A stretch of DNA of 47,095 nt from Rubripirellula obstinata (lineage in GTDB: Bacteria > Planctomycetota > Planctomycetia > Pirellulales > Pirellulaceae). The notes below the pieces were generated by a model. It ran no database searches and was not told where the DNA came from. It worked only from the letters and a program-made list of their open reading frames with translations. Of this stretch, positions 12,159-47,095 are shown piece after piece (positions within the stretch are counted from its first letter, which is position 1; each line of letters opens with the position of its first letter). The stretch lies in assembly GCF_001642955.1 (NCBI RefSeq), contig NZ_LWSK01000040.1, positions 1 through 47,095 of the forward strand. The letters are read 5' to 3'. The position numbers and the translations under genes are program-made.

Positions 12159-12465
12159 ACGAGAACTTGGTCAAGTTTTCACTTGTGACTAGATCAAAGA
12201 AACCTTATTCGAAAATACAACGGTGACACGCAGCTTAGAAATCCCGCCGGTCTCATGCCTGTATTTTCCAACGCCGATCCTGGGGCTTAATAAGCAACAA
12301 AACAATAGATGACCTTTCCTTTTTTTCCCAGTTGACCGAATACGAGTAACTGTGTGAGCGACTTCGGCTTGATTGCTCGGAACACGCGGGAAGGCTTTGA
12401 GTTGTAATGGGGCTTATGAGCCGAATTTTATGGCACTATTTTGCAAGCTAACGATTGGAGACATC
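12159..12465. other. intergenic gap, possible promoter region
   Basis: About 300 bp without a gene after the flippase. No stem followed by a T-run and no repeat family seen elsewhere in the window was found. It is the longest gap among the first genes of the cluster, so an internal promoter is possible, but no -35/-10 pair stands out. Confidence 0.3.
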
Positions 12466-12510
12466 ATGAAACAAACTGACTCAAACAAAGAGGAGCACTT
12501 TGGTGGCTGA
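12466..12510 (+). CDS. 15-codon leader ORF overlapping the methyltransferase start
   Basis: ATG 12466 opens a 14-residue reading frame (MKQTDSNKEEHFGG) ending at TGA 12508-12510. GGAG at 12457-12460, 5 nt before the ATG, is a good ribosome-binding site. Its end overlaps the GTG start of the next gene (12503), and the AGGAG for that gene (12491-12495) lies inside it. This is the geometry of translational coupling. Whether the peptide itself matters is unknown; it could also be chance. Confidence 0.35.
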   Translation: MKQTDSNKEEHFGG

Positions 12511-14361: not shown

Positions 14362-14417
14362 CTGTGAGAGGACGGTTGAGCCTCTGATGATTCGTGTGAC
14401 CGATTCTGGAAACCATT

Positions 14418-30818: not shown

Positions 30819-30861
30819 GCCCGTTCATGCAATTCAATCGCGGATCGAATTGGAAGCCTCT

Positions 30862-31614: not shown

Positions 31615-31662
31615 TAGACGGATCTTGTTTTTCAAGAAAACAGTAACATTTGGAGCACTTAA

Positions 31663-33006
31663 TTGAGTTCGTCAGACACATTGGCAGCACTTTCCCAGCG
31701 GATATCAAGTGGCGCTGCAAAAATTGGCATCGTGGGGCTTGGGTATGTGGGGCTGCCGCTGATTAGTGCTTTTACTAACGCGGGGTTTGGTTGCATTGGG
31801 TTTGATGTTGATAAGAAAAAGATCGATGCGCTGGCGAAGGGGCAAAGTTATATCAAGCATATCGAAGGGACGACGATCGCTGGGTGGCTGGAAAAAAAGA
31901 TGCTTGAACCAACCGCGGATATGTCAAGGCTCTGTGACGCCGATGTCATTCTGATCTGCGTGCCCACGCCGCTGACGGGAACGCGTGATCCCGACTTGAA
32001 GTATGTCACCGGAACCGCCAAAGCCATCGCCAAGGTGCTGCGGCCTGGTCAGTTGATCGTGCTAGAAAGTACGACCTATCCGACAACCACTCGCGATGTG
32101 ATGCTGCCAATCTTGGAAAAGAATCCGGCGGGTTTGAAAGCTGGCGTGGATTTCTTTGTCGCTTATAGTCCCGAACGAGAGGATCCAGGGAATGTGGACT
32201 TTACCGCTGCCGGGATCCCAAAAGTGGTCGGTGGCTGCGATGAAGCTTCGACGCGTTTGGCGTGCCAGTTGTACGAGAAAGCGATCGTCAAAGTTGTGCC
32301 AGTTTCCAGCGCGGAGATCGCGGAAGCTTGCAAGATTCTGGAGAACACTTACCGCAGCGTGAATATCGCCTTGGTCAACGAACTGAAGACACTGTTTGAC
32401 CGGATGGGGATTGATATCTGGGAAGTGGTGGATGCGGCGAAGACTAAGCCGTTTGGGTTTCAGGCGTTTTATCCTGGTCCGGGTTTAGGCGGACATTGCA
32501 TTCCGATTGATCCATTTTATCTGTCGTGGCTCGCGCGCCGCGAAGGCATGACTACACGATTCATTGAATTGGCCGGTGAAGTCAACACCCGGATGCCCGA
32601 GTACGTGATCACTCGACTCAGTGAAGCTCTGAACCAAAAGGGCAAACCGATCAAAGGTAGCCGCATTCTGATTTTGGGGATGGCCTACAAGAAGGACGTG
32701 GATGATTCGCGGGAAAGCCCATCGTTTGAATTGATGGACATGTTGCTCGATCGCGGCGGCGACGTTTCCTACAACGATCCCTACATCCCTGAACTGCCGG
32801 CCAAACGTCGGTATCAAAATCTGCCATCGCTGGCCAGCGCACCGCTAACGGCCGAATACCTGCGAGCGATGGACTGCGTCCTGATCGCCACCAACCACAG
32901 CGATTATGACTACGATTTCGTCGTCAAACATTCGTCGCTGGTCATCGACACTCGCAATGCAACGTCAGGTGTGACCGAGGGTCGAGAGAAGATCGTTAAG
33001 GCGTAG
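31663..33006 (+). CDS. UDP-sugar 6-dehydrogenase (UDP-GlcNAc/UDP-Glc dehydrogenase family)
   Basis: A 447-residue NAD-dependent dehydrogenase that oxidises C6 of a UDP-sugar to the uronic acid. The dinucleotide site is GIVGLGYVGLPL (Gly24, Gly26, Gly29). VAYSPEREDPGN and GGHCIPIDPFYLSW with catalytic Cys279 follow, then LGMAYKKDVDDSRESPS in the C-terminal UDP-binding domain. The SPEREDPGN form is typical of the UDP-N-acetylhexosamine branch (WbpA-like) rather than plain UDP-glucose dehydrogenases, but substrate should stay open. It starts with TTG 31663; GGAG at 31652-31655 is 7 nt upstream. It closes the cluster and supplies an acidic sugar, perhaps with the epimerase at 9586. Confidence 0.92.
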   Translation: MSSSDTLAALSQRISSGAAKIGIVGLGYVGLPLISAFTNAGFGCIGFDVDKKKIDALAKGQSYIKHIEGTTIAGWLEKKMLEPTADMSRLCDADVILICVPTPLTGTRDPDLKYVTGTAKAIAKVLRPGQLIVLESTTYPTTTRDVMLPILEKNPAGLKAGVDFFVAYSPEREDPGNVDFTAAGIPKVVGGCDEASTRLACQLYEKAIVKVVPVSSAEIAEACKILENTYRSVNIALVNELKTLFDRMGIDIWEVVDAAKTKPFGFQAFYPGPGLGGHCIPIDPFYLSWLARREGMTTRFIELAGEVNTRMPEYVITRLSEALNQKGKPIKGSRILILGMAYKKDVDDSRESPSFELMDMLLDRGGDVSYNDPYIPELPAKRRYQNLPSLASAPLTAEYLRAMDCVLIATNHSDYDYDFVVKHSSLVIDTRNATSGVTEGREKIVKA

Positions 33007-33038
33007 AAAGTTTGTTCGCAATTTTGGGCAAAACGATG

Positions 33039-33575
33039 GAGGGGCAAAACGATTGTAGACTCAGGTTAGTGGCCTTCGGATAACGTCGTGAGATATCTGA
33101 GATATCGAGGGTCGATCAACGAAATTCTGTTTAACTCAACGACCGCGCACCATCGTTTTGCCCCCTCATCGTTTTGCCAGATTCCTGACGCTATGCACAA
33201 CGTCGCCATTTTCAAACTAACAAGTTTTCAAACCTATTTTTCAGACAGGACTATTCCAAGTCAGCGAGACTAGGAAATTTGGCAAGAACATCGGGGGCAA
33301 GACCATGTTGCACTGCCAATCCACTGCCGGCTTCATCAAGGGAAAATCACCTTTTGAAGCTGGCATTTTTTGTGAGCCGCTGGCGGTAACGCCTCGGGCA
33401 TTTACGTCAGCCCGGCTACCGCAGTGTTGATACGGAGGCCCGGCCGCTTACGCGATCACGGCTCACGAACCGGTTTGAAAAACTGACTTCCCTCAAATCT
33501 GAATCCTTGCGTCCTTGCACCCCCGCGCCCCCGTGTCTCCGCGCCCCCGTGTCTCTGCGTCTCTGCGTCAATTTT
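33039..33575 (+). repeat. ~0.5-kb direct repeat flanking the Uma2 gene, left copy
   Basis: From GAGGGGCAAAACGATT to CTGCGTCAATTT this segment matches 34284-34793 with scattered substitutions. It contains a family B palindrome with a long loop (33028-33180). It also holds an inner element bounded by GTGAGCCG (about 33371) and CGGCTCAC (about 33468), and a CTTGCGTCC...CTCTGCGTC tract. No gene is seen in it. Confidence 0.8.
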
Positions 33576-33678
33576 CTTCTCTCCCCTCGGCTTTCTCTGT
33601 TATCATTCAATCTTGGTTTTCAGTCATTCTTTTCACCCTCGAGCGTTCTCAGTGTCCGCACAAATTGAATCTGAATCG

Positions 33679-34245
33679 ATGTCTTCGCAACCGGCGTTTC
33701 CCGTCCGGCACTTTTCTGTCGAAGAGTATCACCGACTAGCTGAGGTGGGTGTTCTGACCGAGGCAGATCGCGTCGAATTACTAGAGGGAGTGATTTCGCC
33801 CAAGATGGTTCATTCTCCAATTCATGATGCAACCGTTTCGATCATTGAGCAGTTGCTTCGCCCGTTTTTGTTGCCGCAGTGGTTTCTCCGTATTCAGAGT
33901 TCGATCACACTTCAATCAAGTGAACCCGAACCGGATATCGCTGTTGTCAAAGGACCACCCCAGCAATATGCGTCGCGTCACCCTGGCGGATCCGACATTG
34001 CACTTGCCATTGAGGTCGCCGAGACGTCACTGCTGCGTGACCAAGCAAAGGCGACAACGTACTCGGGTGGCAGAATTGGCTGCTATTGGATTGTTGACCT
34101 ACGAAACCGAGTGATCGAGGTACATGATGGTATCGAAAATGATGCCTACAGTCAGTGTCGCCGCTTCCAAGTCAAAGAATCAATCAAGGGCGGCATCGCG
34201 TTTGAAGGCGGCACCGAATTTTCCGTAAGTGATTTGTTCTTGTAG
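33679..34245 (+). CDS. Uma2-family (DUF820) PD-(D/E)xK-fold protein
   Basis: A 188-residue protein with the usual Uma2 order. RHFSVEEYHRLAEVGVL and DRVELLEGVISPKMVHSPIH come first. EPEPDIAVV follows, with Asp86 as the PD-type acidic residue, then ALAIEVAETSLLRDQAKA with Glu112 and Lys124 of the (D/E)xK part, and GCYWIVDLRNRVIEV. Uma2 proteins adopt a restriction-endonuclease-like fold and are strongly expanded in cyanobacteria and planctomycetes; their role is mostly unknown. The start is ATG 33679; GTG 33652 would also be possible. The gene sits alone between two 0.5-kb direct repeats, as if carried in as a cassette. Confidence 0.85.
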   Translation: MSSQPAFPVRHFSVEEYHRLAEVGVLTEADRVELLEGVISPKMVHSPIHDATVSIIEQLLRPFLLPQWFLRIQSSITLQSSEPEPDIAVVKGPPQQYASRHPGGSDIALAIEVAETSLLRDQAKATTYSGGRIGCYWIVDLRNRVIEVHDGIENDAYSQCRRFQVKESIKGGIAFEGGTEFSVSDLFL

Positions 34246-34283
34246 CGTTTAGATCCTCTTGCTTCGCTTGAAGATCACAAGGT

Positions 34284-34793
34284 GAGGGGCAAAACGATTT
34301 TAGACTCCGGTTAGTGGCCTTCGGACAACGTTGTGGGATGTCTGAGATGCCGAGGGCCGATCAACAGAAATTCTGTTTAACTCAACGACCGCGCACCATC
34401 GTTTTGCCCCCTCATCGTTTTGCCAGATTCCTGACGCTATGCACAACGTCACCATTTTCAAACTAACAAGTTTTCAAACCTATTTTTCAGACAAGACTAT
34501 TTCAAGTCAGCGAGACTAGGAAATTTGGTAAGAACATCGGGGGCAAGACCATGTTGCGCTGCCAATCCACTGCCGGCTTCATCAAGGGAAAATCACCTTT
34601 TGAAGCTGGCATTTTTTGTGAGCCGCTGGCGGTAACGCCTCGGGCATTTACGTCAGCCCGGCTACCGCAGTGTTGATACGGAGGCCCGGCCGCTTACGCG
34701 ATCACGGCTCACGAACCGGTTTGAAAAATTGACTTCCCCTCAAATCTGAATCCTTGCGTCCTTGCGCCCCCCGCGTCTCTGCGTCAATTTCCC
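34284..34793 (+). repeat. ~0.5-kb direct repeat flanking the Uma2 gene, right copy
   Basis: Matches 33039-33575 over most of its length, including the family B palindrome, the GTGAGCCG/CGGCTCAC element and the CTTGCGTCC tract. The left copy carries an extra CGCGCCCCCGTGTCTC stretch near its end. A third, partial fragment follows at 34843-34875 (half of family B). Confidence 0.8.
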
Positions 34794-35107
34794 TTCCAAA
34801 GTAGTTTCAGTGTCCACGCAAAGTGAATACAAATCGACCGCGCACCATCGTTTTGCCCCCTCATCGTTTTGCCAATCTCTTCACAACATGCACGAGTGTT
34901 TAACGAGTTCGAGCTTGATTGGGGCGTCTGGTCGATTCACGGCATAGATTTCTTAGACAAGTCCCTCGAAAAGAGGACCAGAACTAGAGGAATATGCTGC
35001 TCGCTTTGACCACGGAGCGTGGTCTTACCACCGATGGTTTTGCCAATCCACTGCCGGCCTCCGCTTCCGAGCCTGACGACTGGCGATTGAGTGACTAAGA
35101 TTTGGGG
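34794..35107. repeat. repeat remnants upstream of the exosortase
   Basis: About 310 bp without a gene. It holds a half family B palindrome (34843-34875) and TTGCCAATCCACTGCCGGC (about 35040), which also occurs inside both 0.5-kb repeats. A short inverted repeat CCACGGAGCGTGG is seen near 35012. A promoter for the exosortase must lie here or further upstream, but none is clear. Confidence 0.5.
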
Positions 35108-36850
35108 ATGAGTTCTTCTACAACTTCCGAATCGACTTCGGCTGGCTTTCAGCTTGACCGCCGTGATCACGTTGCCGCTTTGTTTTGGGGCGGGATGCTG
35201 GTCGCTTTACTGCCGTTTTTGGTGAAGTATTGCCGGGCGATGTGGTTTCAAAGCCTGTACCAGTATTTCCCGTTCTTGCTGGCCGCCGTTTTTGGTTTGG
35301 CATACGTGCGATTCGATCGGCGGATTCGGTTGCCGCACGGATGGTTTTCCAAAACAGCAACGATCGCCTCGCTGATCTTCATGGTGGGGGCGGCGATCCT
35401 TGCATCGAGTTGGCTTGGGGCAATCGCTTTTGCGTTGGCAACCGGCGGCTTTTTGTCTGCTCAGCGTGATCACGCTGGAAATTCGCTGGGCTATTTGGCC
35501 GTTCCGATGTTGATGTTCATTCGGGCACCATTGCTAGGCACCTATACGGTGATGCACCGACTGCAGTTGGCGACAACTTACCTGGGCAGCACGCTGCTGG
35601 ACGTCTTGGGGGTGATCCATGTCAAATCAGGGAACACGATTGAATTGGTCAACAAGAGTTTGTTTGTGGCGGAAGCATGCAGCGGAGTTCAATCTCTTTT
35701 CACAATGTGCTTTTTGACGCTGCTTCTTTGGGCATACAAGCGACGACCGTATTTTTTGGTACCGGTGTATTTGTTGTTTGCCTTTTTCTTTGCCGTCGTT
35801 GGCAACGTCATTCGCGTGACTTCGATTGCAGTTGCCGAGGCTTGGTTTTCGTTTGACTTGACGGAGGGACTGACCCATGAATTGGTGGGTTACGCGGCGC
35901 TCGCAATTGCTGCAGGCATGATGGCGTCACTGGATCATGTGTTGGGATTGATGCTTGGCAAGTTTCGTCCTACTGGAAAACAAACTTCACCTTCCGATGA
36001 TCCCATTAGCCGTTTTGGCGATAGCCACGGTTTCGACACTGATTCTCAAAAAACCGTGGCTAGCGCAAATACGGCTAATCAGAGTGCGAGTAACGAAGCA
36101 GCCGCGAGCGATTTCAATTTCAAGACTGCGTTCAATCAACTACCGAAGCTTGCCAAATTTGCGTTTGTAACTTCGCTGGCTTGCGGGGCGATGATGACGG
36201 CGTGGATGCTGCTGCGAGAACCCGACAAGCGGCCGGTTGTGGCAAAAGATGAAGTGCTATTTGAACCGAAGGCAAATTTCTTATCCGGGTTAGATGCTCC
36301 GATCCAGGTGGTCAATCATGAACATCGTCGGGACGCCCATGCTGACCGTAACGCTCGTCACGGCATGAATTCAGATGCGTGGCAGTGTGGAATCAATGCA
36401 ACGCAGGGCCAATTTGCGTTGAGCCAGCCCTACATGGGATGGCACGAATTGACGGTGTGCTATCGAGTACTCGATTGGAAGCTGGTCGCCAGGACACCCA
36501 CCATGCCGACATCAGGTTCAGATCCAGTGGTCGTGGCAGAATTCACGAACGATTCTGGGGAACACGGAACACTCTTTTTCACGGCGGTCGATTCGGACGG
36601 CAGCATTCCGAGGGCACCCGGGCATTCAAATTTCTCACGGTCGCTTGCGCCGTTGGAGCCGCTAATTTTTGACGACTTCGCCGAACTGACCGGAAGCGCG
36701 CAGACGATCATGCTGCAGTACTGGGTAACCGGAACTGAACCGCTTTCCAGTGAAACCAAGCAGCAGGTTATCGACATGATGGACCAAATCCGAGGTTACA
36801 CCAGTGAACAGGTAGCCGAGTACACGGACGACTTGCTTGGGGGCTCCTAG
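35108..36850 (+). CDS. exosortase with C-terminal EpsI-like domain
   Basis: A polytopic protein of 580 residues (ATG 35108; TTG 35102 possible). The exosortase core spans about residues 25-285, with eight or so membrane helices. It shows the catalytic triad: Cys191 in AEACSGVQSL, Arg236 in GNVIRVTS and His257 in LTHELVGYAAL. Exosortases cut and process proteins bearing C-terminal PEP-CTERM-type signals and occur with exopolysaccharide genes. After residue ~350 one more membrane helix and a periplasmic domain follow (QCGINATQGQFALSQPY, WHELTVCYRVLDWKL), resembling the EpsI/DUF3485 domain fused to some exosortases. It probably belongs to the planctomycete exosortase branch, but the subtype is not certain. 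It is followed after 216 bp by a membrane-anchored helical protein. Confidence 0.9.
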   Translation: MSSSTTSESTSAGFQLDRRDHVAALFWGGMLVALLPFLVKYCRAMWFQSLYQYFPFLLAAVFGLAYVRFDRRIRLPHGWFSKTATIASLIFMVGAAILASSWLGAIAFALATGGFLSAQRDHAGNSLGYLAVPMLMFIRAPLLGTYTVMHRLQLATTYLGSTLLDVLGVIHVKSGNTIELVNKSLFVAEACSGVQSLFTMCFLTLLLWAYKRRPYFLVPVYLLFAFFFAVVGNVIRVTSIAVAEAWFSFDLTEGLTHELVGYAALAIAAGMMASLDHVLGLMLGKFRPTGKQTSPSDDPISRFGDSHGFDTDSQKTVASANTANQSASNEAAASDFNFKTAFNQLPKLAKFAFVTSLACGAMMTAWMLLREPDKRPVVAKDEVLFEPKANFLSGLDAPIQVVNHEHRRDAHADRNARHGMNSDAWQCGINATQGQFALSQPYMGWHELTVCYRVLDWKLVARTPTMPTSGSDPVVVAEFTNDSGEHGTLFFTAVDSDGSIPRAPGHSNFSRSLAPLEPLIFDDFAELTGSAQTIMLQYWVTGTEPLSSETKQQVIDMMDQIRGYTSEQVAEYTDDLLGGS

Positions 36851-36901
36851 TGGACAGAGCAACTTTGATGAGCCGTTTTGGGGATCGCGGATTGTTTTCT
36901 T

Positions 36902-36926
36902 GAGCCGCGACGCGTGAGCGGCCGGG
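36902..36926. repeat. dispersed G+C-rich repeat (unit also in the 45.7-kb tandem array)
   Basis: GAGCCGCGACGCGTGAGCGG followed by CCGGG is the same core as the 55-bp tandem repeat at 45.7 kb (there GTAAGCGG). Here it occurs once, between the exosortase and its downstream partner, with a related CCGCTGGCCGTGAGGCC complement nearby. Confidence 0.6.
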
Positions 36927-37066
36927 CATACCGCGTCGGCCCGAGGCCTCACGGCCAGCGGTTCACCGTTCTTGTTCCAAGCTCAATTAAAACGACAGGC
37001 CTCTGACGCGGCATCGCTACCAAAGTCAGCTTTCTATTCTTATCTTTTTCGGTTCTCGCAATCACC

Positions 37067-38887
37067 ATGAACGACCTTTCAACCTCCGGATCCGAGGAGA
37101 CGGTAACCCAGGACGGCGCGATAGGGCGCAAGCGCGATCTAGGGTTCGCGATTGCCGTCTTGCTCTTCGCTGCGATGATTGCCGGCGTCCTGTTTTATGG
37201 AAACTGGTGGCGAAAAGAACATCTCGACGAAGCCTACGAAACACGTTTACAAAAAAGCCTGCAGTCATACCAGCAAGTCGTTGCCAGCAAGAATCCCGAT
37301 CGCGATCAAGTCTATCTGCTTGGTGCTGAGATTGACGTTGTTATGCGTCGTATTGCCGATCAGATGAATGAACCTGAAGTTGTTTGGAGAAACTTCCAGT
37401 TTTTGCGGCAGCATGCTCATCGCCTCAATTCGTTGTTTTCCAGTACGCCAAATTGGAATGACCCGACGTTGCTGAGTGTCCGATTGGGTGAGATCAAGCG
37501 TCGTATTGATGGCTATCAAGGCCGCAGCGATAAGTATCTGGCGGAAGTCGTGAAATCGGATTCGACGTTCGGCAGTTTTGCCAAGTTGCAGCAAATCGAA
37601 GACTCCGTGGTCCGAAGTGGTTGGGACCAGAATTCGCTCGATGATCTTTTAACGCAAGCATCCGTCGTGCTGGTCGATTGCCTGGCCCGATCAGCTCAAG
37701 AGCAGGAAGGTCAACCAGAGTCCTCTCAACTACAGCCTATTGAATTGCAGCCCACTGAATTACAGCCCGCTGCAATACAGCCTTTTGGCGGAGATTCAGA
37801 AGAGAACACGCTCAGCGATGAAGATGTTTTTTTGCGTGGGATGGCGATCGCCACTTGGTTGATCGGGCACCAGGACCAGCCAGAAAAGCTAGCCGAGCTC
37901 GAAACGCTTCTCAAAGATCAAAGTGGCAGTTCCGCTGAATCGGAAACTTTACTGCGACTGACGGATAGTAGAACCGAAGCTCTGTTGGCGATTTCGAAAT
38001 TGATGGTTTCCGTGGCCGATGATAGTGACGAACGATCCATCCAAGACGCGTTGAAACGATTTGATCGGAGTTATCGTTACAACGCGAAAGATACCGATGG
38101 GATCCTTGGGCAAGCGATGGCGATTCGCTTTCAAGCAGCGACGGCGGATTGGCCTAGCATCGTCGATACGATTGGCGAGCTGTCGGAAACCGAAACGGTT
38201 GGTAAGCAAGAAGTCGCGTTTTTGAGGCGTGATTCCTCTTACGCAATTTTACAATTATTGAAGTCCGAGTCTTGGCTGGATCGGATCAAGACTCAGTTTC
38301 AGATCGAGAAAGGTTTGGAAACAGCGGTGAACCTTTCTAGGTATTCAACGGATTCGTTTGAGATGCTGATGGCGATCGGGGTGGCGAGAGGCATGGCAGC
38401 GAAGAACGCTTTAAAGCTGGACGACTTTCCGCCGATCGACGACAGGGTAGTCGAGGCAGCGAAGGCAAGCCCGAGTAGTATCATCGCGATGACGACCGAG
38501 GCAATTTCGGCGGGGATAAAACGGGACGATGTGCAGCTTAATGATGTGGTCGCTAGCGAAGCGATGTTGAATGTGGGTTTGATCGATATGTTGGCCAGCA
38601 TCGCGACTTGGCGATTGTTCGCCGAGCCTGAACCGGATCCCGCGGAAGTAAAGCTGTGGATGATGCTGATGGAGTCGATCACTCTTGATCCTGAAAAAAT
38701 TCGCCAACAAAAAGGCGGTAGTGCTTTGTTGGCTCTTGCGGGGTGGCAAAGCCAAGCAGGGGATCAGGATTCCGCCACTAAAACGCTTGAAGCAGCAGAA
38801 CCGCTGGTTGGCGATACGCAGCTTTTCATCCAGATCGAAGATCTTATCAACCGCCTCGAAAAGAAGACTCTCGGCAAAGCCGAATGA
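37067..38887 (+). CDS. membrane-anchored helical-repeat protein, exosortase partner
   Basis: A 606-residue protein with a ~23-residue polar N-terminus, one membrane helix (about 25-45, LGFAIAVLLFAAMIAGVLFY), then a long mostly helical, acidic domain, presumably periplasmic. TPR-like helix pairs are visible but degenerate. A four-fold QP repeat (LQPIELQPTELQPAAIQPF, about residues 224-242) makes a linker. No enzymatic motif is seen. ATG 37067 is clear. Its place downstream of the exosortase parallels the TPR protein after the second exosortase-like gene, so the two may play the same part as scaffold or assembly factors. That role is inferred from layout only. Confidence 0.75.
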   Translation: MNDLSTSGSEETVTQDGAIGRKRDLGFAIAVLLFAAMIAGVLFYGNWWRKEHLDEAYETRLQKSLQSYQQVVASKNPDRDQVYLLGAEIDVVMRRIADQMNEPEVVWRNFQFLRQHAHRLNSLFSSTPNWNDPTLLSVRLGEIKRRIDGYQGRSDKYLAEVVKSDSTFGSFAKLQQIEDSVVRSGWDQNSLDDLLTQASVVLVDCLARSAQEQEGQPESSQLQPIELQPTELQPAAIQPFGGDSEENTLSDEDVFLRGMAIATWLIGHQDQPEKLAELETLLKDQSGSSAESETLLRLTDSRTEALLAISKLMVSVADDSDERSIQDALKRFDRSYRYNAKDTDGILGQAMAIRFQAATADWPSIVDTIGELSETETVGKQEVAFLRRDSSYAILQLLKSESWLDRIKTQFQIEKGLETAVNLSRYSTDSFEMLMAIGVARGMAAKNALKLDDFPPIDDRVVEAAKASPSSIIAMTTEAISAGIKRDDVQLNDVVASEAMLNVGLIDMLASIATWRLFAEPEPDPAEVKLWMMLMESITLDPEKIRQQKGGSALLALAGWQSQAGDQDSATKTLEAAEPLVGDTQLFIQIEDLINRLEKKTLGKAE

Positions 38888-39414
38888 CCTCGCAACATGG
38901 TATTGCCACCCACCGTCTTGCCCAAAAAAACGACCGCGCAACATCGTTTTGCCTCTCCATCGTTTTGCCAATGTCTTCGAGTAATTGAGACTTTGAACCG
39001 CTAATGGACGCTAACAAAACGCTAACAAAGCAAGTTTTAAACCGTTTGTTGAATCTTTGCGGAGTTTCTTGTTAGCGTCCTATCAGCGTCAATGAGCGGT
39101 TCTATGTAGTGCTACGCGGAGGCGTTTAGAGCTCCTGATGGTCTGAACCCTGGCGGGCCCAGCTACGGGAAAACCGGGAAGTTATTTCGGGACAGTCTCC
39201 TAAAGCTATTGCTGGACACTCACGTAAATCTTCCCACTATCGCAGCATCGACCTGGAAAGCCTGGAACGAATGGGACGGTTATTTCGGCGGTTGGCTGGG
39301 GGAATGCAATCTTCGGGCCAGATTTAGGGATTGATTTTGGCCGCTGACCGCTAGAATTGGTGGATTGTCCCTCAGGCATTCCTTTCTTCTCGATCTCGAA
39401 TTGGTTTCTCTCGA
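38888..39414. repeat. intergenic region with repeats of families A, B and the 54-bp repeat
   Basis: About 530 bp without a gene. It contains a family B half (38938-38970), a family A inverted repeat at 38996-39101 (outer arms AACCGCTAAT and ATGAGCGGTT) and the second 54-bp repeat (39143-39196). This region precedes the BY-kinase gene and should carry its promoter, which could not be recognised. Confidence 0.6.
39143..39196 (+). repeat. 54-bp dispersed repeat, copy 2
   Basis: Matches 224-277 with one mismatch (CTGAACCCTGGCGGGCCCAG here). It lies 42 bp after a family A inverted repeat, as the first copy also lies near a family A relative. Confidence 0.75.
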
Positions 39415-41868
39415 ATGCAAGCTACTGCACCTCCTTCACCTCAGTTAGCGCAAAAACTCGATCCGTTTTCGACGGCTCCGGGTACCAATGCCCAGCCAGT
39501 CAACGTTGCCGAGGTCCTTTGGCGTTACCGCTGGGCTGTCGCCTTGCCCGTTGTCGTGGGTGCGGTTGTTGGCCTGCTGATCTATCTGCAATTACCTGAA
39601 ACCTACCGCAGCACCACGCGGTTAATGATCGAATCCGATCAAGCCGCTGTGCTGGATCCTATCAACGGGGACATGGTCGGCGGTGTACCAAGTCTGGATA
39701 TCGTTCAATCGCAACTGTTTAGCGATCGCGTGATGCAAATGACGTTTAACGCACCACGTCTGCGTCCATTTCAGGAAGAGTTCGAGGGTAGAGTTGGTGC
39801 ATTCGTGGAAGAGTCCCTGGAGTCTCTTGAGTTAGAACCCGAAGTGGAAGACGTTAAGACTGCTCAGTCAGTTGTGACGTTGATGCACTTCGAAAGCGAG
39901 AATGAGGAGCTTTGCAAGGCGGCCGTTGAATCGTTTAGCGAATCTTTGCAGTCTTTTTACAACGAGAACTACAAGAGCAATCGTGGTGATTTGATTCGAT
40001 TGATTTCGACGGGGATGGAACAGCTTCATCCAAAGATGTTGGAACTTGAAAACCGTTATCGCACCTTCCGACGCGATGCACCGCTAGCTTGGAATGCGGA
40101 GGGTCTTGCGATCAACCCGCACCGTGAACGCCAATTGTTTTTGGTTGGAAGACGAAGCGAGATCGATGAGATTGCACGTCAAAAGAAAACTGAAGTTGCC
40201 GCATTGAAGTCGATTGTCAGCCAATCAGGCCAGGATCCGATTTTGGGACTGAACATCATTGGCGAGCTTTTGGGCAAGCAGTTTTCGCTGCCAAATTCTG
40301 GCAGTCGATTGGGTGAGTTGCAGCAGGGTGACCGCATTCTTGCGACCATTGGTTTGGACAAGGAACTTGTCCCGATGATCATCGAACGCGACAAGTACGC
40401 GGCCGAGTTTGGTCCAGAGCACCCAACGGTTCGCAACCTGGATGCTCAGTTGGAATCGATGAAGACGGAAATGAAGAAACTGGTGGAAGACCAAACTGAC
40501 CGCGTGATGGAGCTGATTGGCGAAACACTCGTTGACCCGGTTCAAAGAGCCAAAGAGGCACTAGCTGCAATTGTCATGGCTTCGGAAGCTCAAGTGGATT
40601 TGCTAACGGAACAGCGGAAAGAACTTGATGATCAAATCAGCGAAGAGCGTTTGGGTGCATCTAAGCTGGCTCAATATGAACAAGAAAATCAAGCTCAGCT
40701 TCGTGAAATCGAGCGGACTCGCGAGTTGCTGGAACAACTTGAAGAGCAGATGGCGAAAGTTAGTATCGGCAAGGATGAGCGTGGTACTCGCGTGATTGAG
40801 TTGACCGCGCCGTCGCTTGCTTACAAGGTTGGCCCCAGCATTTTGAAAACAGTAGGACTGGGTAGCTTGCTGGGCATTATGCTTGGCTCCGGACTTGCTT
40901 TGCTGCTTGAGAAGAATGCGAATACCTTCCGCGATCCAGATGAGATCTCTGAAGAATTGGGCGTGCCTGTGTTGACGCACATTCCGTTCTTCAAGGGCAA
41001 GCTGAAGAAGCTTGGGAAAGACGAGGTCAATCCCTACGAGAAGCTGGATCCGGCACTTGCGGTGATCCACATGCCTGCATCAGTTCCGGCTGAGGCAATT
41101 CGATCGTTCCGCACGTCAGTATTCTTTGAAACCTCGGGACCGGGCTGTAAAGTCATTCAGGTCACCAGCCCATTGCCGGGTGATGGTAAGAGTACGATCG
41201 CGGGCAACTTGGCCTGTTCGATGGCGCAGAGTGGAAAACGCGTTCTCGTGATTGATAGTGACCTTCGACGTCCTCAATTGACCGACTTCTTCAGCTTGGC
41301 TGAACAGAAGGGTTTGACCGATGTGCTTAACGGAGACTGCGAAGTTTCCGACGGGTGTCATTCAACCCCGTTGAATAACTTGTTTGTCATGCCAAGTGGT
41401 CCGGTTCCTGCTAACCCAGCCGAAGCTTTGACGCTTCCCGAAATGGGTTCGATGCTGGAAGTGCTGAAGCAGAAATTTGACTACATCATTGTCGATACTC
41501 CACCGTTGTTGGTGGTCACCGATCCAAGCATCATCGCCAGCTTGGTTGATGGTGTTGTGATGGCTCTTCGGGTTCGTCGCAAGAGTCGCCACAACTCGAA
41601 GGAATCGATCAATATCCTTCGCAGCGTCGGTGCTCGCGTGCTTGGTGTTGTTATCAACAACTCCGACGAAGCTGGTGCCAGCGATGGATACCGCGGATAT
41701 GGCTATTACCGCTACGCCCGACACACCAGTCGGTACTACCGGTCGGCCAAGGGCAACAAGGTGCGTCGCGACAAAGAGCCGCTGATCATCTCCGGAAAGG
41801 GGTCCCAAACCTCGAGCAAACCGGTTGCCGCTGTTTCAGCGTCGAATTCCGATGAGCTTGATGGCTAA
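39415..41868 (+). CDS. polysaccharide co-polymerase/tyrosine autokinase (Wzz-BY-kinase, Wzc-like)
   Basis: An 817-residue inner-membrane protein. A Wzz domain has helix 1 at about 43-60 (ALPVVVGAVVGLLIYL); a long periplasmic coiled-coil part with GNVR-like features runs to about 455, and helix 2 lies at about 480-500 (LGSLLGIMLGSGLALLL). The cytoplasmic BY-kinase domain follows. Walker A is PGDGKST (residues 588-594), Walker A' is VIDSDLRRPQ (Asp614, Asp616) and Walker B is IIVDTPP (Asp694). The tail holds a Tyr cluster (YRGYGYYRYARHTSRYYR from about 759), the autophosphorylation site expected of Wzc. It controls chain length and export in Wzy-dependent systems. It lies between the two exosortase modules. 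ATG 39415 is a sound start. Confidence 0.93.
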   Translation: MQATAPPSPQLAQKLDPFSTAPGTNAQPVNVAEVLWRYRWAVALPVVVGAVVGLLIYLQLPETYRSTTRLMIESDQAAVLDPINGDMVGGVPSLDIVQSQLFSDRVMQMTFNAPRLRPFQEEFEGRVGAFVEESLESLELEPEVEDVKTAQSVVTLMHFESENEELCKAAVESFSESLQSFYNENYKSNRGDLIRLISTGMEQLHPKMLELENRYRTFRRDAPLAWNAEGLAINPHRERQLFLVGRRSEIDEIARQKKTEVAALKSIVSQSGQDPILGLNIIGELLGKQFSLPNSGSRLGELQQGDRILATIGLDKELVPMIIERDKYAAEFGPEHPTVRNLDAQLESMKTEMKKLVEDQTDRVMELIGETLVDPVQRAKEALAAIVMASEAQVDLLTEQRKELDDQISEERLGASKLAQYEQENQAQLREIERTRELLEQLEEQMAKVSIGKDERGTRVIELTAPSLAYKVGPSILKTVGLGSLLGIMLGSGLALLLEKNANTFRDPDEISEELGVPVLTHIPFFKGKLKKLGKDEVNPYEKLDPALAVIHMPASVPAEAIRSFRTSVFFETSGPGCKVIQVTSPLPGDGKSTIAGNLACSMAQSGKRVLVIDSDLRRPQLTDFFSLAEQKGLTDVLNGDCEVSDGCHSTPLNNLFVMPSGPVPANPAEALTLPEMGSMLEVLKQKFDYIIVDTPPLLVVTDPSIIASLVDGVVMALRVRRKSRHNSKESINILRSVGARVLGVVINNSDEAGASDGYRGYGYYRYARHTSRYYRSAKGNKVRRDKEPLIISGKGSQTSSKPVAAVSASNSDELDG

Positions 41869-41917
41869 TCCTGGCTTTGCTCGCTGAATCTCTGATGCTC
41901 AGCGAAGTTTCCGTACT

Positions 41918-41958
41918 CGCTGTCGAGAACTTAACCTTTGGTTTAACCCTCGACAGCG
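41918..41958 (+). terminator. stem-loop after the BY-kinase gene, possible terminator
   Basis: CGCTGTCGAG (41918-41927) pairs perfectly with CTCGACAGCG (41949-41958), with a second inner stem AACC/GGTT around a TTT loop. It begins 50 bp after the BY-kinase stop. No T-run follows, so a Rho-independent terminator is not assured. Confidence 0.35.
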
Positions 41959-42060
41959 ATGGCGGTCCCGTCCGAAAATAAAAAGTCGGAAACCAGGGCG
42001 ACTCAAAACTCGCAGGCGAGGGGCACTCATGGTATCCTAACCGGTCAGCGATTCTTTAAA

Positions 42061-42124
42061 TTAGCTGTTTCGGCGTTTGTTACGGGTCTGATCGAAAAAC
42101 CGCGGCGAGCGCCGAAACGGCTAA
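42061..42124. repeat. inverted repeat in the BY-kinase/exosortase gap
   Basis: TTAGCTGTTTCGGCG (42061-42075) pairs with CGCCGAAACGGCTAA (42110-42124) over 15 bp, with one mismatch, around a 34-nt loop. It could be a transcript stem-loop or a dispersed repeat. The surrounding 416-bp gap has no accepted gene; a 60-codon frame at 41959-42141 reads through this hairpin. Confidence 0.45.
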
Positions 42125-42153
42125 GACGATTAGGAACATGAATCTTGAGTGCA

Positions 42154-42185
42154 TTTTGCACACTTTACTGTGACACGGTGCAAAA
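42154..42185. promoter_or_regulatory. 8-bp inverted repeat upstream of the second exosortase-like gene, possible operator
   Basis: TTTTGCAC (42154-42161) and GTGCAAAA (42178-42185) are perfect inverted half-sites with 16 nt between them, ending 99 bp before the ATG at 42285. The spacing would suit a dimeric regulator. No protein can be named and no other copy was noticed. Confidence 0.25.
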
Positions 42186-42284
42186 AGTAACAACTGCCGT
42201 TAGCCCCCGCAGTTATCATCGATTCTTGCCCTGTTCCTTTCGTACCAACGTACAAGCTCCCCCCTTACTAGCGAACGAAATAGA

Positions 42285-44141
42285 ATGACTTCGGTTGAAT
42301 CTCAAACGACCGCCTCGGATGACTTTAGGTCAGCTCAATCGGCGAGTGAAAAACCCTGGTGGAGTCAATCTGGCGGACCAGTGTTTTGGTTGGTTTGCCT
42401 AGTGCCCGCACTTCCGCTTGCTCTCGCACATTGGATTGGTCTGCTCGGCGATTCCCAATACGCATTCTTGCCTTTGCCTTTTTTGGTGATTGGATTCCTT
42501 TACTGGCAACGAGCGGAGGGGACCATTAGCCGACCGGAGACTCTTTCCAAGTGGATCGTGGTAGCCTTGGGATTACTTGCTGTATTGCTGGGCGGGCTGA
42601 TTGCATTTCCATGGCTGGGGGCTTTGGGATTTTTGTTGATCGCCGCAGCGGCACTTTCCAATGTCCGCGGCACCATTCAGAAATCACTTGTAGGCTTGAT
42701 CGCCCCGCTGTTGGCAATTTCACTCCCGTCCGGCGTGACGGGTATCTTTGCCAGCACGATCAACCGTAGCACGGCTTGGCTGTCCAGCATTTTCTTGGAT
42801 TACTTTGAAATGCCGCACTCGGTTTCAGGCAGCGTGATCCGATTGTTTGAATCAGAGGTGATCACCAGCCGAGTTTGCGGCGGATTGGTCGCATTTCCAT
42901 TCTTTCTATTTATTGCATTCTCGTTGCTCGCATGGAAACGGATGAGCTTGTGGCTGTTGCCGCTTTACGCTGTTGCCGCGTTGATCACGACCTTGGCGGT
43001 CAATTCGCTAAGGCTGGTGCTAAGTGTGATTGCTGCGGAATCGATGGAAATGGAATTGACTGAGGGTTGGTACCCGTTCGCAATGTCGGCCATTGCAGCA
43101 CTGATTGGATTCGGACTTCTGTATTCCTTTCATCACCTGTTTGCGATTGCTTTTCACTACGTTGAACCCAACACCGATGCCGGATCAAATCCATTCGTAC
43201 AGTTTTGGAACAAGTTTTCATGGATGAATGACAATCGAGCCTCGGAGGAATTGTCCAGGTCGAGCAATCGCGATGACTATGATGACTTCGCCCCCGATTT
43301 GGCATTGTCACCTTGGTACGGCTTGCTTGGCACGGCAGCTCTCTTGAGCGTTCTGTCGATCGTAGGCGTATTTCGCGGAGGCAGCGACGACGTGCAAGAA
43401 ATCGTGTCATCTGGACCGCTGTTCAATCCAACTGAAAACCTGTTTTCCGAAATCAGCAGTAACGAAAACTTTCAAATCAATGACTACCAATCATCTGCCG
43501 ATGACACCTCTTCGGACCCAGCGGGTTCAAGCTCCAGTCGCCGCGATGATACTTGGACAGGGAAGTTTCGCGGTGGAAATTTAACGATTCAAATTACTCA
43601 ACCCTTAGCTAAATGGATTGAGCTTTCCAGAGCCTATGAAAACTCGGGCTGGGAAGTCATTGACCGCAACAACGAGTCAATGGAACTGGTTGTCACAGAT
43701 GAGAACGACGAGGATGCTGAAGCGGACAACGATTCAGATTTGGACGACTTGGCGGAAGCACCCGAGGAGTTCAATGCTTTCGCAACCGCCCGCATGCGCA
43801 GCGGAGATGGCTCGGAACTGGAAGGCTATCTCTACTTCTCAGCCATCGATAGCGATGGCAAAATCATGGAGACTCCGACCGCCGTCGGTTCGTTATCGCA
43901 AAGCTTTTGGCTTAGACTAGGAATGGGCGATAGTAGCACCACAAAACCCGCCGCGATGATACAGTTTCTAGTAGTCACACCCGAAAAATTGTCGCCGAGT
44001 GACATCCGAGTATTGAAACGAGAATTCGTCAAACACCGCGAAGAGGTCGCCCGAGCGATCGCTGGTGACGAATCAGCCGCGTCAAAGCCGGGACCATTTG
44101 ATCAGACACAAACCCAATCACTGCGGGGGCCTCAATCATGA
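42285..44141 (+). CDS. exosortase-like protein lacking the catalytic His
   Basis: A 618-residue polytopic protein related to the exosortase at 35108. From PLYAVAAL to about residue 290 the two align without gaps. Cys198 (SRVCGGLVAF) and Arg243 (NSLRLVLS) are kept. The catalytic His position, 21 residues after the Arg, is Pro264: ELTEGWYPF here versus DLTEGLTHEL in the other. A soluble acidic C-terminal part from about residue 355 ends in an EpsI/DUF3485-like stretch (GGNLTIQITQPLAKWIELSR, SGWEVIDRN). Without the His it may be inactive as a protease, may act as a pseudoenzyme partner, or may use another residue. Its end overlaps the TPR gene by 4 nt (ATGA). Confidence 0.8.
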   Translation: MTSVESQTTASDDFRSAQSASEKPWWSQSGGPVFWLVCLVPALPLALAHWIGLLGDSQYAFLPLPFLVIGFLYWQRAEGTISRPETLSKWIVVALGLLAVLLGGLIAFPWLGALGFLLIAAAALSNVRGTIQKSLVGLIAPLLAISLPSGVTGIFASTINRSTAWLSSIFLDYFEMPHSVSGSVIRLFESEVITSRVCGGLVAFPFFLFIAFSLLAWKRMSLWLLPLYAVAALITTLAVNSLRLVLSVIAAESMEMELTEGWYPFAMSAIAALIGFGLLYSFHHLFAIAFHYVEPNTDAGSNPFVQFWNKFSWMNDNRASEELSRSSNRDDYDDFAPDLALSPWYGLLGTAALLSVLSIVGVFRGGSDDVQEIVSSGPLFNPTENLFSEISSNENFQINDYQSSADDTSSDPAGSSSSRRDDTWTGKFRGGNLTIQITQPLAKWIELSRAYENSGWEVIDRNNESMELVVTDENDEDAEADNDSDLDDLAEAPEEFNAFATARMRSGDGSELEGYLYFSAIDSDGKIMETPTAVGSLSQSFWLRLGMGDSSTTKPAAMIQFLVVTPEKLSPSDIRVLKREFVKHREEVARAIAGDESAASKPGPFDQTQTQSLRGPQS

Positions 44142-45709
44142 TTCAGTACTTAAATCCAATCTCTTGGCTGAAGTGGGGCGGACAGTTTGTTTCGGGGTGG
44201 CTGATGTCATTCCCGGTTCGCGATACACCTAAATCTTTCCCAGCGGTAGCCATCTTGCTGTTGTTGATTGTCTGTACGATTGCTGCGTTTTCTCAAAATT
44301 CTGACTGGCGCGGTCGTCTGCTGGACCGACAACTCGGCGCGGCCTTTGAAAAAGATGATTTTGGCACCGCCGAATTGGTGCTCGCCCGACAACTGGAACA
44401 GAAACCCAACGACACTCAAGTCTTGTTTCGTATGGGAATGACTAAAGATGCATTGGGCGAAGAAGAAGAAGCAATCGAACTGATGCAACGACTCGTCAGC
44501 GTCAAACGAGACGACAGTGCCGCTCGCTGGTTGCTGGACAAGAAGTACTTGAGTCAAAAAAAGAAATTGAACGTTGCGGACGATGAGGCAGACGAATTCG
44601 GAGAACTGCTAAAGCTGGTCCACAAAGAAACGCCACAAGACTTACGGATCAAACAGTTATTGGTCAACTATTTGATGGCGACCCAGGATTACAACAAGGC
44701 GATTCCATTGCTGGATGACCTTTCGCGGTATCAGCCGATGCGTGGGTTGCAGGCAGCCGCACTTTCAAAGCAATTGGGCAATACCGCAACGGCGAATCGG
44801 TTGGCCAACCGTACGCTTGAAAAAGTCCAGAAGCTTTACGAGGAAGAACCCACGAACCCGACGCTCGCTCTTGCCGTCGCTCAGAGTCAACTGTTCCTAG
44901 AACAGCACTCGGAAGCAGTGCAGACACTCTACAAAGCAATTGGTAGAGCTCGCAAAGACGACCAAAAACGAACGCTATCGATTTCGATGGGTGATGCGAT
45001 CGTGGCCTGGGTGGGCTTTCTTGAAAACTCTGAAACCACAACCTCCAAAGACCGCGTACGCGTCTTGAAAATGTTGCAAGTGGCACTGCGATACGCCCCC
45101 AACAACCCGCGTGTTGTCAGCGTGATCGCCGACCAAGTTCTCGCAACCATGGACGAAAAGAGCGAAGAGATGGCGGCGCTTCGCAAGGCGCTCGTCTCCG
45201 GCACCTCGCCCGGGATCGCTCACTTCCTACGCGGCACGGCGGCCTTGATGAAGAACAAGTACAAGATCGCGGAACGCGAACTGGAACTGGCGGCGAAGGA
45301 TCTACCCAAGAGCGGAGCGATTTTGAACAACTTGGCCGTTGTGATTGCACTGCAAGAAGATGGCGATCTGGAGCGAGCGTTGAAGGTGTCAGAAATGGCG
45401 ATCAAGCAAACGCCCGGCGCAAGCCCGCACTTCTTTGAAACACGCGGACAGATCTTGTTCCGAATGAAAAAGTACGAGAAAGCAATCCCCGATCTCGAGC
45501 ACGCGTTGATCATTGATTCACTCGCCAAGAACGCTCATAAATCACTGGCAGTCTGCTATGACGAAATCGGCGACACCGCGATCGCCGACATGCACCGCCA
45601 GGGCGCGGAAGACCCGGAAAGCATGAAGGTTGATCTAAGCATCGACACCGACGTTGAAGACCTTTCCGAAAAGGTCAAGGAAGTAGAAGAAGCCGAGGCA
45701 GAAGAGTAG
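44138..45709 (+). CDS. membrane-anchored TPR protein, partner of the second exosortase-like protein
   Basis: A 523-residue protein: a ~30-residue N-terminus, one membrane helix at about 33-52 (SFPAVAILLLLIVCTIAAFS), then TPR units throughout. Clear units include GTAELVLARQLEQKPND, EEAIELMQRLVSVKRDD, YNKAIPLLDDLSRYQP and YEKAIPDLEHALIIDSLAKN; the tail is very acidic. The start ATG overlaps the preceding stop (ATGA), so it is translationally coupled to the exosortase-like gene and probably works with it. TPR proteins commonly scaffold export or assembly machines; here that is inferred. Overall design (short N-terminus, one helix, long helical domain) matches the protein at 37067. Confidence 0.85.
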   Translation: MIQYLNPISWLKWGGQFVSGWLMSFPVRDTPKSFPAVAILLLLIVCTIAAFSQNSDWRGRLLDRQLGAAFEKDDFGTAELVLARQLEQKPNDTQVLFRMGMTKDALGEEEEAIELMQRLVSVKRDDSAARWLLDKKYLSQKKKLNVADDEADEFGELLKLVHKETPQDLRIKQLLVNYLMATQDYNKAIPLLDDLSRYQPMRGLQAAALSKQLGNTATANRLANRTLEKVQKLYEEEPTNPTLALAVAQSQLFLEQHSEAVQTLYKAIGRARKDDQKRTLSISMGDAIVAWVGFLENSETTTSKDRVRVLKMLQVALRYAPNNPRVVSVIADQVLATMDEKSEEMAALRKALVSGTSPGIAHFLRGTAALMKNKYKIAERELELAAKDLPKSGAILNNLAVVIALQEDGDLERALKVSEMAIKQTPGASPHFFETRGQILFRMKKYEKAIPDLEHALIIDSLAKNAHKSLAVCYDEIGDTAIADMHRQGAEDPESMKVDLSIDTDVEDLSEKVKEVEEAEAEE

Positions 45710-45723
45710 GCGTAGGCCTGGCG

Positions 45724-45979
45724 ATTAAAGTGAGCCGCGACGCGTAAGCGGCCGGGACTACTGCTGAACGGCCTATCCAATAAAGTGAGCCACGACGCGT
45801 AAGCGGCCGGGACTACTTCTGAACGGCCTGTCCAACAAAGTGAGCCGCGACGCGTAAGCGGCCGGGCCTACTTCTGACCGGCCTATCCAATAAAGTGAGC
45901 CGCGACGCGTAAGCGGCCGGGCCTACTTCTGACCGGCCTGTCCAACAAAGTGAGCCGCGACGCGTAAGCGGCCGGGCCT
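45724..45979. repeat. 55-bp tandem repeat, about 4.6 copies
   Basis: TGAGCCGCGACGCGTAAGCG recurs at 45731, 45786 (one change), 45841, 45896 and 45951, exactly 55 bp apart. The unit continues GCCGGG(C/A)CTACTTCTGA and ends AATAAAG or AACAAAG, the two endings alternating. It fills most of the 349-bp gap between the TPR gene and deoC, which converge on it. It holds no gene; the G+C-rich half of each unit can fold (CCGC...GCGG). Confidence 0.9.
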
Positions 45980-46058
45980 TCGCTCATTTCCCGGTAAACC
46001 CAAAGAGCGCCTTCCGGCCTACTTCACTTCCGGTCAGCGACTGACAAGCTACTGGCTA

Positions 46059-46790
46059 CTAGTAATTCGGATTCGCACCGGCCGAAGAATTTGCTGAATT
46101 GATTTCGGGCATACCGAGTTGCCTCCGAAGCGGGTCCAGCATCCCTGGCGTTCGGCTGGATCCACAACGGGTCACGCCAACCTTCTTGACCTCAATCAGC
46201 GCGTCTAGGTCTCGCACGCCGCCTGCGGCTTTGACCTGAACATTGTCAGCGGCATGCTGGCGCATCAATTTCAAATCTTCCATCGTGGCACCGCTGCTGC
46301 CGAAGCCGGTGGACGTCTTCACCCAGTCAGCACCGAGATCGTTACAGATCTCGCAGAGCTTGATTTTGTGCTCGTCTTGCAAATAGCAATTCTCGAAAAT
46401 GACTTTGACCTTTCGATCGGCCGCGTGAGCGACCTCGATAACCGCAGCGATATCACTACGAACGTAATCCCAATTGCCGCTAAGAACTTGATTGACATTG
46501 ACCACCATGTCGAGTTCCTCGCAACCTTCAGCAATGGCTTGCTGGGCTTCCGCTCGCTTGGTAGCGGTTGTCTGACCGCCATGCGGAAAGCCAATCACAG
46601 TTGACGCTTTGACGTCGGTGCCTGAAAGCAATTCGGCACATCGTTTCAAATAAAAGGGCATGATGCAAACGCTGGCAACGTCGTACGAAATCGCCAGCTC
46701 GATACCCCGGTCAAAATCTGACACCGGCATGTTGGGATTGAGCATCGAGTGATCAATCATCTTTGCGAGGTCTTGGTAGCTGTATTGCAT
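46059..46790 (-). CDS. deoC: deoxyribose-phosphate aldolase
   Basis: A 243-residue class I aldolase, cleaving 2-deoxyribose-5-phosphate to acetaldehyde and glyceraldehyde-3-phosphate in nucleoside catabolism. Family marks are IDHSMLNP near the start, EELDMVVNVNQVLSGNW (Asp94), KVIFENCYL, ADWVKTSTGFG with the Schiff-base Lys158, and VKAAGGVRD with Lys187. The phosphate-binding end GVTRCGSSRTPGML is slightly unusual. The start is the ATG at 46790 (minus strand); the frame stays open further upstream but without family sequence. It is the only minus-strand gene and is unrelated to the polysaccharide cluster. Confidence 0.95.
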   Translation of the reverse strand: MQYSYQDLAKMIDHSMLNPNMPVSDFDRGIELAISYDVASVCIMPFYLKRCAELLSGTDVKASTVIGFPHGGQTTATKRAEAQQAIAEGCEELDMVVNVNQVLSGNWDYVRSDIAAVIEVAHAADRKVKVIFENCYLQDEHKIKLCEICNDLGADWVKTSTGFGSSGATMEDLKLMRQHAADNVQVKAAGGVRDLDALIEVKKVGVTRCGSSRTPGMLDPLRRQLGMPEINSANSSAGANPNY

Positions 46791-47095
46791 GATGAGGTTC
46801 CGGTCACAGGGATTCGATTGGCTGATGTTTTCACCAGGATACCGGTCAGAATACGACTGGCGTAGTGGTTGTTCTTCGCAACTCGCGGTGGCGAGTGCAA
46901 GAAGCTGTGGGGGCGGCACGCAACGCCCGGCCTGATGAAAATCATTGCAACGCAGCAGATTGGGCAAGCGGCACCATGGCAGACAACACAAACTGTAGCG
47001 CTGGGAAGCATTGTGGCAACGGCGCATTTCCCTGATCGCCAGCACGTAGGCCGTAGCGAGCCTTAGCGAGTTACGGCAATGCACGCACCGCCGTA
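46791..47095. other. upstream region of deoC, no gene accepted
   Basis: The open frame continuing upstream of deoC on the minus strand has no family resemblance and an odd composition, so it is regarded as non-coding leader. The deoC promoter should lie here. No clear -35/-10 pair, repeat or RNA gene was seen. Confidence 0.4.

Follow-up and report, generated by a model that had tools for sequence, protein, structure and literature searches.

One intact and one degenerate exosortase U around a Wzc-like tyrosine kinase gene in Rubripirellula obstinata: a possible enzyme with a non-catalytic partner

Introduction

The DNA analyzed here (the window) is a stretch of 47,095 nt from Rubripirellula obstinata, and our subject is a run of five genes within it, P0001 to P0005, all of whose open reading frames (ORFs) lie on the + strand (Table 1). 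They comprise an intact exosortase U (XrtU), a candidate helical protein, a Wzc-like bacterial tyrosine kinase (BY-kinase), a degenerate XrtU and a membrane-anchored tetratricopeptide repeat (TPR) protein. An earlier note had read five genes in this order from the letters alone; the ORFs and their strand were confirmed, as were family matches for P0001, P0003, P0004 and P0005, and the start that it gave the first exosortase is an ATG just inside a longest ORF that opens with TTG. In the whole 6.58 Mb assembly, PF09721 matches no protein other than P0001 and P0004 at E <= 0.001. Judged from the sequences, the chances seem about even that the locus encodes one active enzyme with a catalytically dead partner; a pair of active exosortases seems very unlikely. 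The question has some reach, as exosortases are mechanistically poorly known, and dead copies, along with the residues lost together with the triad, indicate which parts of the enzyme are important.

Table 1. Features of the five-gene stretch and of the gene cluster that precedes it
Feature	Position	Strand	Remark
P0001, intact exosortase U (XrtU)	35102-36850	+	TTG start; ATG at 35108
P0002, helical-domain candidate	37067-38887	+	no family over cut-off
P0003, Wzc-like BY-kinase	39415-41868	+	TIGR01007 match
P0004, degenerate XrtU	42285-44141	+	PF09721 and XrtU_C matches, triad incomplete
P0005, membrane-anchored TPR protein	44138-45709	+	TPR_19 match
Surface-glycan gene cluster upstream of P0001	9562-33006	+	Pfam scans

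The Intact Exosortase

P0001 exceeds the cut-offs of three models: PF09721 (Exosortase_EpsH; 84.0 bits, cut-off 25.7), TIGR02602 (108.0 bits, cut-off 105.55) and the XrtU_C domain NF033780 (149.7 bits, cut-off 40). An exosortase membrane domain is followed by the XrtU_C domain at 36302-36820. The available part of the EpsH family description lists six invariant residues in the motifs CxG, NxxR and HxxxG, with a Cys, an Arg and a His presumed to be catalytic (PMC1569441), and the available part of a review repeats the Cys, Arg and His (PMC4343526). All six residues, as given in that part of the description, are present in P0001 (CSG, NVIR, HELVG). Its triad is C193/R238/H259 (codons at 35678, 35813 and 35876), and its XrtU_C domain carries the pair His448/Cys453 (codons at 36443 and 36458). 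Potential substrates occur in the same genome, where 32 of 43 listed PEP-CTERM matches, counted as 24-position matches, were flagged over cut-off (2 of the 32 only with neighbours in frame); none of 14 control genomes had a match over cut-off, and 13 had weaker ones.

P0001 and P0004 share 22% identity (E 5e-25) and align with a profile-profile probability of 100%, so that the earlier view of both as exosortase-type membrane proteins stands, with both now placed as XrtU homologs. The "EpsI-like" C-terminal parts ascribed to them hold by position and not by family: neither DUF3485 (Pfam) nor the EpsI model gave a row for either protein at E <= 1, and the NCBI model that does match is XrtU_C. 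For 12 XrtU proteins (A5), the family matches listed at E <= 10 do not include DUF3485 either; one match to it, in L073, has an E of 0.33. A sequence search for a solved relative of XrtU returned none at E <= 1.

The Degenerate Copy

P0004 has the same layout, a membrane domain and then an XrtU_C domain (43473-44063). It passes the cut-offs of PF09721 (57.0 bits) and XrtU_C (72.9 bits), falls below that of TIGR02602 (57.3 bits), and matches a profile of 123 intact XrtU proteins over almost its full length (E 9.2e-96). The motifs CGG and NSLR are kept; HxxxG is missing, with Pro in the His column. By alignment the triad columns hold Cys198, Arg243 and Pro264 (codons at 42876, 43011 and 43074), and the XrtU_C His/Cys columns hold Ile445/Ala450 (codons at 43617 and 43632). 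Lacking HxxxG, P0004 is therefore classed as an exosortase homolog and not as an exosortase enzyme. The loss is common to all five genomes of the genus in which this gene order was found. There the copy between the kinase and the TPR gene reads CRP, SRP, NRP, NRA or CKS at the triad, the upstream copy reads CRH in every case, and the XrtU_C pair is gone from all five second copies as well. By the published criteria, as far as the available part of the family description gives them, at most one member of each pair can thus be a protease (PMC1569441). The "two-exosortase machine" of the earlier note is not supported.

The gene has nonetheless stayed open. P0004 orthologs in four genomes (39-57% identity) are stop-free over 588-618 codons. 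Codon differences fall at third positions more than at first or second ones in all six pairs compared. A dS could be computed for three of these pairs, and their ratios of nonsynonymous to synonymous rates (dN/dS) are about 0.16, 0.20 and 0.22. The 3' end of P0004 overlaps the start of P0005 by 4 bases (44138-44141), and by ORF coordinates the same overlap recurs in L078, L079, L081 and L083, and hence in all five genomes.

A confident AlphaFold model of P0004 (predicted local distance difference test score, pLDDT, 82.2; predicted template modelling score, pTM, 0.82), built on an alignment of 65 proteins from the window and the profile-scan loci, is helical in its N-terminal membrane half and continues into a soluble alpha/beta domain. 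Foldseek found no match to it under E 0.001. The Eag chaperones SciW/EagT6, DcrB and PsbP, which we take to be Mog1/PsbP-like folds, are a candidate, unconfirmed likeness for XrtU_C.

Conservation of the Gene Order

The five-gene order occurs in the source genome and in G799, G800, G801 and G815, that is, in 5 of 22 genomes of the genus, and three of these congeners (G800, G801, G815) have a recognisable P0002 ortholog in it. It is accordingly a conserved arrangement, as had been supposed, and not a peculiarity of one genome. Among the remaining 17 congeners, XrtU_C found no match in 14 and a weak one in G806, which lies outside the comparison. G811 and G647 have other arrangements, that of G811 being a single intact XrtU between the kinase and the TPR gene. 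A profile built from four P0004-type rows, with at most five candidates scored per genome, gave its top scores to those rows themselves (above 1000 bits, in their own genomes only) and no more than 352 bits elsewhere among 241 genomes of the family, so no further close member of the P0004 lineage was seen there.

XrtU itself is widespread, with an XrtU_C match over cut-off in 141 of the 241 genomes. A profile scan of contigs gave no relatives when the alignment behind it was narrow; a second scan yielded 79 loci, and relatives were drawn from Rhodopirellula, Stieleria, Roseiconus, Mariniblastus, metagenome-assembled genomes (MAGs) of Pirellulaceae and others. Gene orders in the compared loci, taken from a simple longest-ORF script, commonly run kinase, one intact XrtU, TPR gene, so that the slot occupied by P0004 is usually filled by a single intact XrtU. 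For 122 intact XrtU genes in the fetched loci, the kinase lies directly upstream in 25 and a TPR gene directly downstream in 72. The statement that exosortases sit beside exopolysaccharide genes is borne out in this form: XrtU with a TPR gene, and often a BY-kinase, is widespread in the sugar clusters of the family.

Degenerate Copies Across the Family

In a survey of 141 XrtU ORFs of at least 380 residues, taken from the window and 118 fetched loci, 123 carried the CRH triad and 18 were degenerate. Where a locus held more than one XrtU, a degenerate one was present in 16 of 21 cases, each beside an intact copy; loci with a single XrtU had a degenerate one in 1 of 98. Rows left out were L092, which duplicates the position of L090; L064, whose XrtU was masked by a longer ORF overlapping it; a frame of L100 truncated at its 5' end; and frames under 380 residues. 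All 18 degenerate proteins match the intact-XrtU profile at E 2e-20 or better; five (L128, L131, L133, L147, L169) have no PF09721 match at E <= 1, and L153 lies below its cut-off. In six cases out of 17, a degenerate gene of the fetched loci immediately follows an intact XrtU of the same orientation. L072 and L073 have the triads CRQ and CCH with the XrtU_C His/Cys pair intact; they may be active, or they may contain assembly errors.

The surveyed loci were mostly the best rows of a list ranked by XrtU_C score, which under-samples lone degenerate copies, and a census was made for that reason. It covered 28 genomes chosen for few contigs and known XrtU content, the four congeners included, and found 53 XrtU-like proteins, 42 intact and 11 degenerate; several weak matches were left aside, and lone copies with an unrecognised XrtU_C would escape it. 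Near-identical genomes were counted separately. A degenerate copy occurs in nine genomes, and all nine also have an intact one. The Cys of the near-invariant XrtU_C His/Cys pair is missing in 11 of 11 degenerate proteins. Another XrtU lies within 10 kb of 8 of the 11 degenerate copies versus 11 of the 42 intact ones (Fisher p 0.010).

Other arrangements were seen among these loci. In L124, L128, L131, L133, L147 and L153 the degenerate XrtU directly follows the intact one, and no TPR or kinase gene was recognised in the fetched locus. L066 (G622, 4730-15011) has two divergently transcribed XrtU-TPR modules next to a BY-kinase; the XrtU of one is intact, that of the other degenerate (C/H/N). 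L074 to L077 hold tandem XrtU-TPR modules with the full triad in both exosortases, and a kinase of Rhodopirellula rubra (L201) has an XrtU-TPR module with an intact triad on either side.

Phylogeny

On a quick tree of 76 rows the label intact or degenerate changes at least six times, a rough count on a tree in which several long branches meet and degenerate rows often sit on long branches. On a more careful tree of 29 rows the clades of P0001 and P0004 fall into a single XrtU group (support 100/99) together with 12 other rows, nine of which have a kinase in the fetched locus. An origin of P0001 and P0004 as sister duplicates within the genus is disfavoured on this tree, at a borderline p of 0.0455 in the approximately unbiased (AU) test. 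Support for joining the G799 copy to the P0004 clade is low (50/74). The "duplicated module" of the earlier note is thereby reduced to its exosortases, which are paralogous; sister status within the genus is disfavoured, and their partners P0002 and P0005 show no significant similarity.

The Partner Proteins

P0003 was correctly recognised as a BY-kinase: it matches TIGR01007 (polysaccharide tyrosine autokinase) at 171.1 bits (cut-off 108.05). Its N-terminal part is Wzz-like, slightly below cut-off (25.1 bits against 25.5), and its translation ends in a tyrosine-rich tail. The TPR assignment of P0005 likewise stands, with TPR_19 at 67.3 bits (cut-off 25, E 1.5e-18) over four stretches.

P0002 is harder to place. 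The description "membrane-anchored helical" holds for the single N-terminal hydrophobic stretch of its translation; the helical part comes from a single-sequence AlphaFold model alone, all-helical and of low confidence (mean pLDDT 39.7). No Pfam or NCBIfam family exceeded its cut-off, and no TPR match appeared. P0002 was at one time taken for an orphan, since a first search found it in its own genome only, 1 of 397 genomes of the class, in a sample without the locus-bearing congeners; orthologs were then found in L079, L081 and L083 (24-27% identity). A profile search widened the family to L143, L146, L129 and L138, another genus, where each member lies directly 3' of an intact XrtU, and P0002 therefore occupies the position that a TPR gene has elsewhere. 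BLASTP found no similarity between P0002 and P0005, and a profile of four P0002 rows gave a probability of 3.6%; with eight rows the match to the P0005 family was weak (52%). The best TPR match in the eight-member family is TPR_12, in one member (E 0.0017). The gene in the P0002 slot of G799 differs from P0002 and has a TPR_14 match below cut-off (E 1.8e-4). P0002 may be a strongly diverged TPR protein. L146 has, in order, an intact XrtU, a P0002-like gene, a sugar-nucleotide dehydratase-like gene (assigned by eye), a degenerate XrtU and a TPR gene, apparently echoing the order of the window minus the kinase.

A MAG contig (L244, 8807-11944) encodes one frame of 1045 residues with an exosortase domain (13-322) and TPR repeats (350-1040); its exosortase motifs are intact, and there is apparently no XrtU_C domain between the two parts. 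This fusion supports the view that exosortases and TPR proteins are physically coupled. Certain exosortase matches lie in frames of 1045-1099 residues, which could be further fusions of this kind.

A Dead Partner and its Rivals

The explanation that we favour runs as follows. P0001, the sole triad-intact exosortase found in the genome, would process the PEP-CTERM proteins encoded there. P0004 takes the place between kinase and TPR gene that an intact XrtU holds in related genera, and with its catalytic residues it would have lost its activity, having kept the membrane and C-terminal domains. It would then most likely be a non-catalytic subunit that interacts with P0001 and docks P0001, PEP-CTERM substrates, or both to P0005 and to the export complex around the Wzc-like kinase; such docking would couple sorting to glycan export. 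Support for this reading comes from the gene order and its conservation, the loss of the triad, the disappearance along with it of the His/Cys pair in XrtU_C, the kept frame and the co-occurrence with an intact copy. That P0001 is active, P0004 inactive, the two in contact and P0004 a docking subunit seems about as likely as not. Several observations weigh against it. The upstream intact exosortase of G799 belongs to a different XrtU clade, outside the group of P0001 and P0004, so the two types need not be co-evolved partners; this placement and the 29-row tree mean that different intact enzymes accompany the degenerate copy in the kinase slot. Without the four congeners, the census comparison falls to 4 of 7 degenerate versus 7 of 35 intact copies (p 0.063), and 3 of its 11 degenerate copies (L269, L271, L272, whose motif columns are less certain than those of the others) have no XrtU within 10 kb. 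The dS values behind the P0004 ratios, 2.07-3.05, are near saturation, and three of the six pairs gave none. The P0004 clade evolves fast (39-41% identity to P0004 versus 53-55% for P0001 orthologs), and in P0004 itself Cys and Arg are still present, only the His motif being lost.

Among the rivals, the strongest gives P0004 a role in glycan export and nothing else: P0001 would sort PEP-CTERM proteins, and P0004, the TPR protein and the kinase would form a separate export module that never meets it. The 4-base overlap with the TPR gene and the kinase upstream suit such a module, as do the three isolated copies of the census and the partner of another clade in G799. It accounts less well for the intact copy in all nine census genomes that have a degenerate one, for the closeness of 8 of 11 degenerate copies to another XrtU, or for the six of 17 in the fetched loci that directly follow an intact gene on the same strand, and we consider it doubtful. 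Still less credible is that P0004 is a decaying gene heading for loss and retained through its neighbours alone. Its divergence exceeds that of P0001, and degenerate rows tend to long branches; stop-free frames of full length in all five genomes, computable dN/dS values far below 1, the conserved overlap, and long frames retained through at least six changes of state on the quick tree make this unlikely.

Activity might also persist in P0004. A protease with a rearranged active site, in which another residue replaced the His or another Cys took over, would draw on the Cys kept in P0004 and the G799 copy and on the Arg kept in four of the five second copies. Yet the other three have S, N and N in place of the Cys, the ten residues that follow this column in L083 include no Cys, the His column shows no common substitute (P, P, P, A, S), and the XrtU_C pair is lost throughout, which leaves this idea quite improbable. 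A reading in line with the earlier note, in which both exosortases are active and each serves a substrate class of its own, finds parallels in the side-by-side intact modules of L074 to L077 and in those around the kinase of Rhodopirellula rubra. At this locus we rejected it on the triads of the second copies, incomplete in all five genomes with the five-gene order, and give it very little credence.

To return to the dead partner, a wider proposal can be put more tentatively, at somewhat less than even confidence: the Pirellulaceae may repeatedly have turned one XrtU copy into a dead partner (a pseudo-exosortase class), with XrtU_C as a second site and with a dead copy that links PEP-CTERM sorting to glycan export of the Wzc type, whether by allostery, by docking or by holding substrates. 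The joint decay of the triad and the XrtU_C His-Cys pair would imply a second functional site in XrtU_C that acts with the triad, and since His and Cys vanish together with the triad, they are direct targets for mutagenesis.

Relation to Known Systems

XrtU as an NCBI-named subfamily, PEP-CTERM sorting and exosortase-kinase-TPR neighbourhoods are already known. The locus resembles the exosortase U (NF033780) and PEP-CTERM/EpsH system in its two-domain protein and its glycan-cluster setting, and P0001 resembles it further in its intact triad and the PEP-CTERM proteins of the genome; P0004, unlike that system, fails the catalytic motifs. It also recalls the XrtA system (TPR protein PrsT, chain-length protein, tyrosine kinase) in combining an exosortase, a TPR protein and a BY-kinase in a glycan cluster, but the matches of P0005 and P0003 to its models are far below cut-off (TIGR02917, 73.5 of 312.2 bits; TIGR03007, 60.2 of 278.85; TIGR03018, 121 of 230.65). 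The literature covered, judged by titles and the openings of abstracts and with subscription journals largely outside, showed no dead exosortase copy, paired or otherwise, which is weak evidence of novelty. Inactive rhomboids (iRhoms), which we take to be pseudoenzymes beside active paralogs that keep a membrane protease fold without the catalytic residues, offer a likeness to P0004, although the fold is unrelated and P0004 is known here from sequence alone. Should the active enzyme prove to need the dead copy as a subunit, exosortases would be a further case of membrane proteases with regulatory dead relatives, and there would be a physical candidate for the connection, noted long ago, of PEP-CTERM sorting with exopolysaccharide export.

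The Surrounding Genes

By Pfam scans, the glycan cluster upstream of P0001 contains an epimerase, glycosyltransferases, methyltransferases, a sulfotransferase, an MBOAT acyltransferase and a uridine diphosphate (UDP)-sugar dehydrogenase. A Wzy-like protein (21283-22620) has a weak Pfam match, below cut-off. Wzy_C exceeds its cut-off in an 885-residue O-antigen-ligase-like protein at 1970-4627, with weak TPR matches near the C-terminus. An Rfam scan of 30000-47095 gave no match over the gathering score. Two adjoining nucleotidyltransferase-like genes of the AbiEii / DUF6036 type (6156-7726) lie near the start of the cluster, a transposase-like gene (DDE_Tnp_1-associated, 24802-25701) lies within it, and a putative endonuclease gene of the Uma2 type (PF05685, 33613-34245) stands between the sugar dehydrogenase and P0001.

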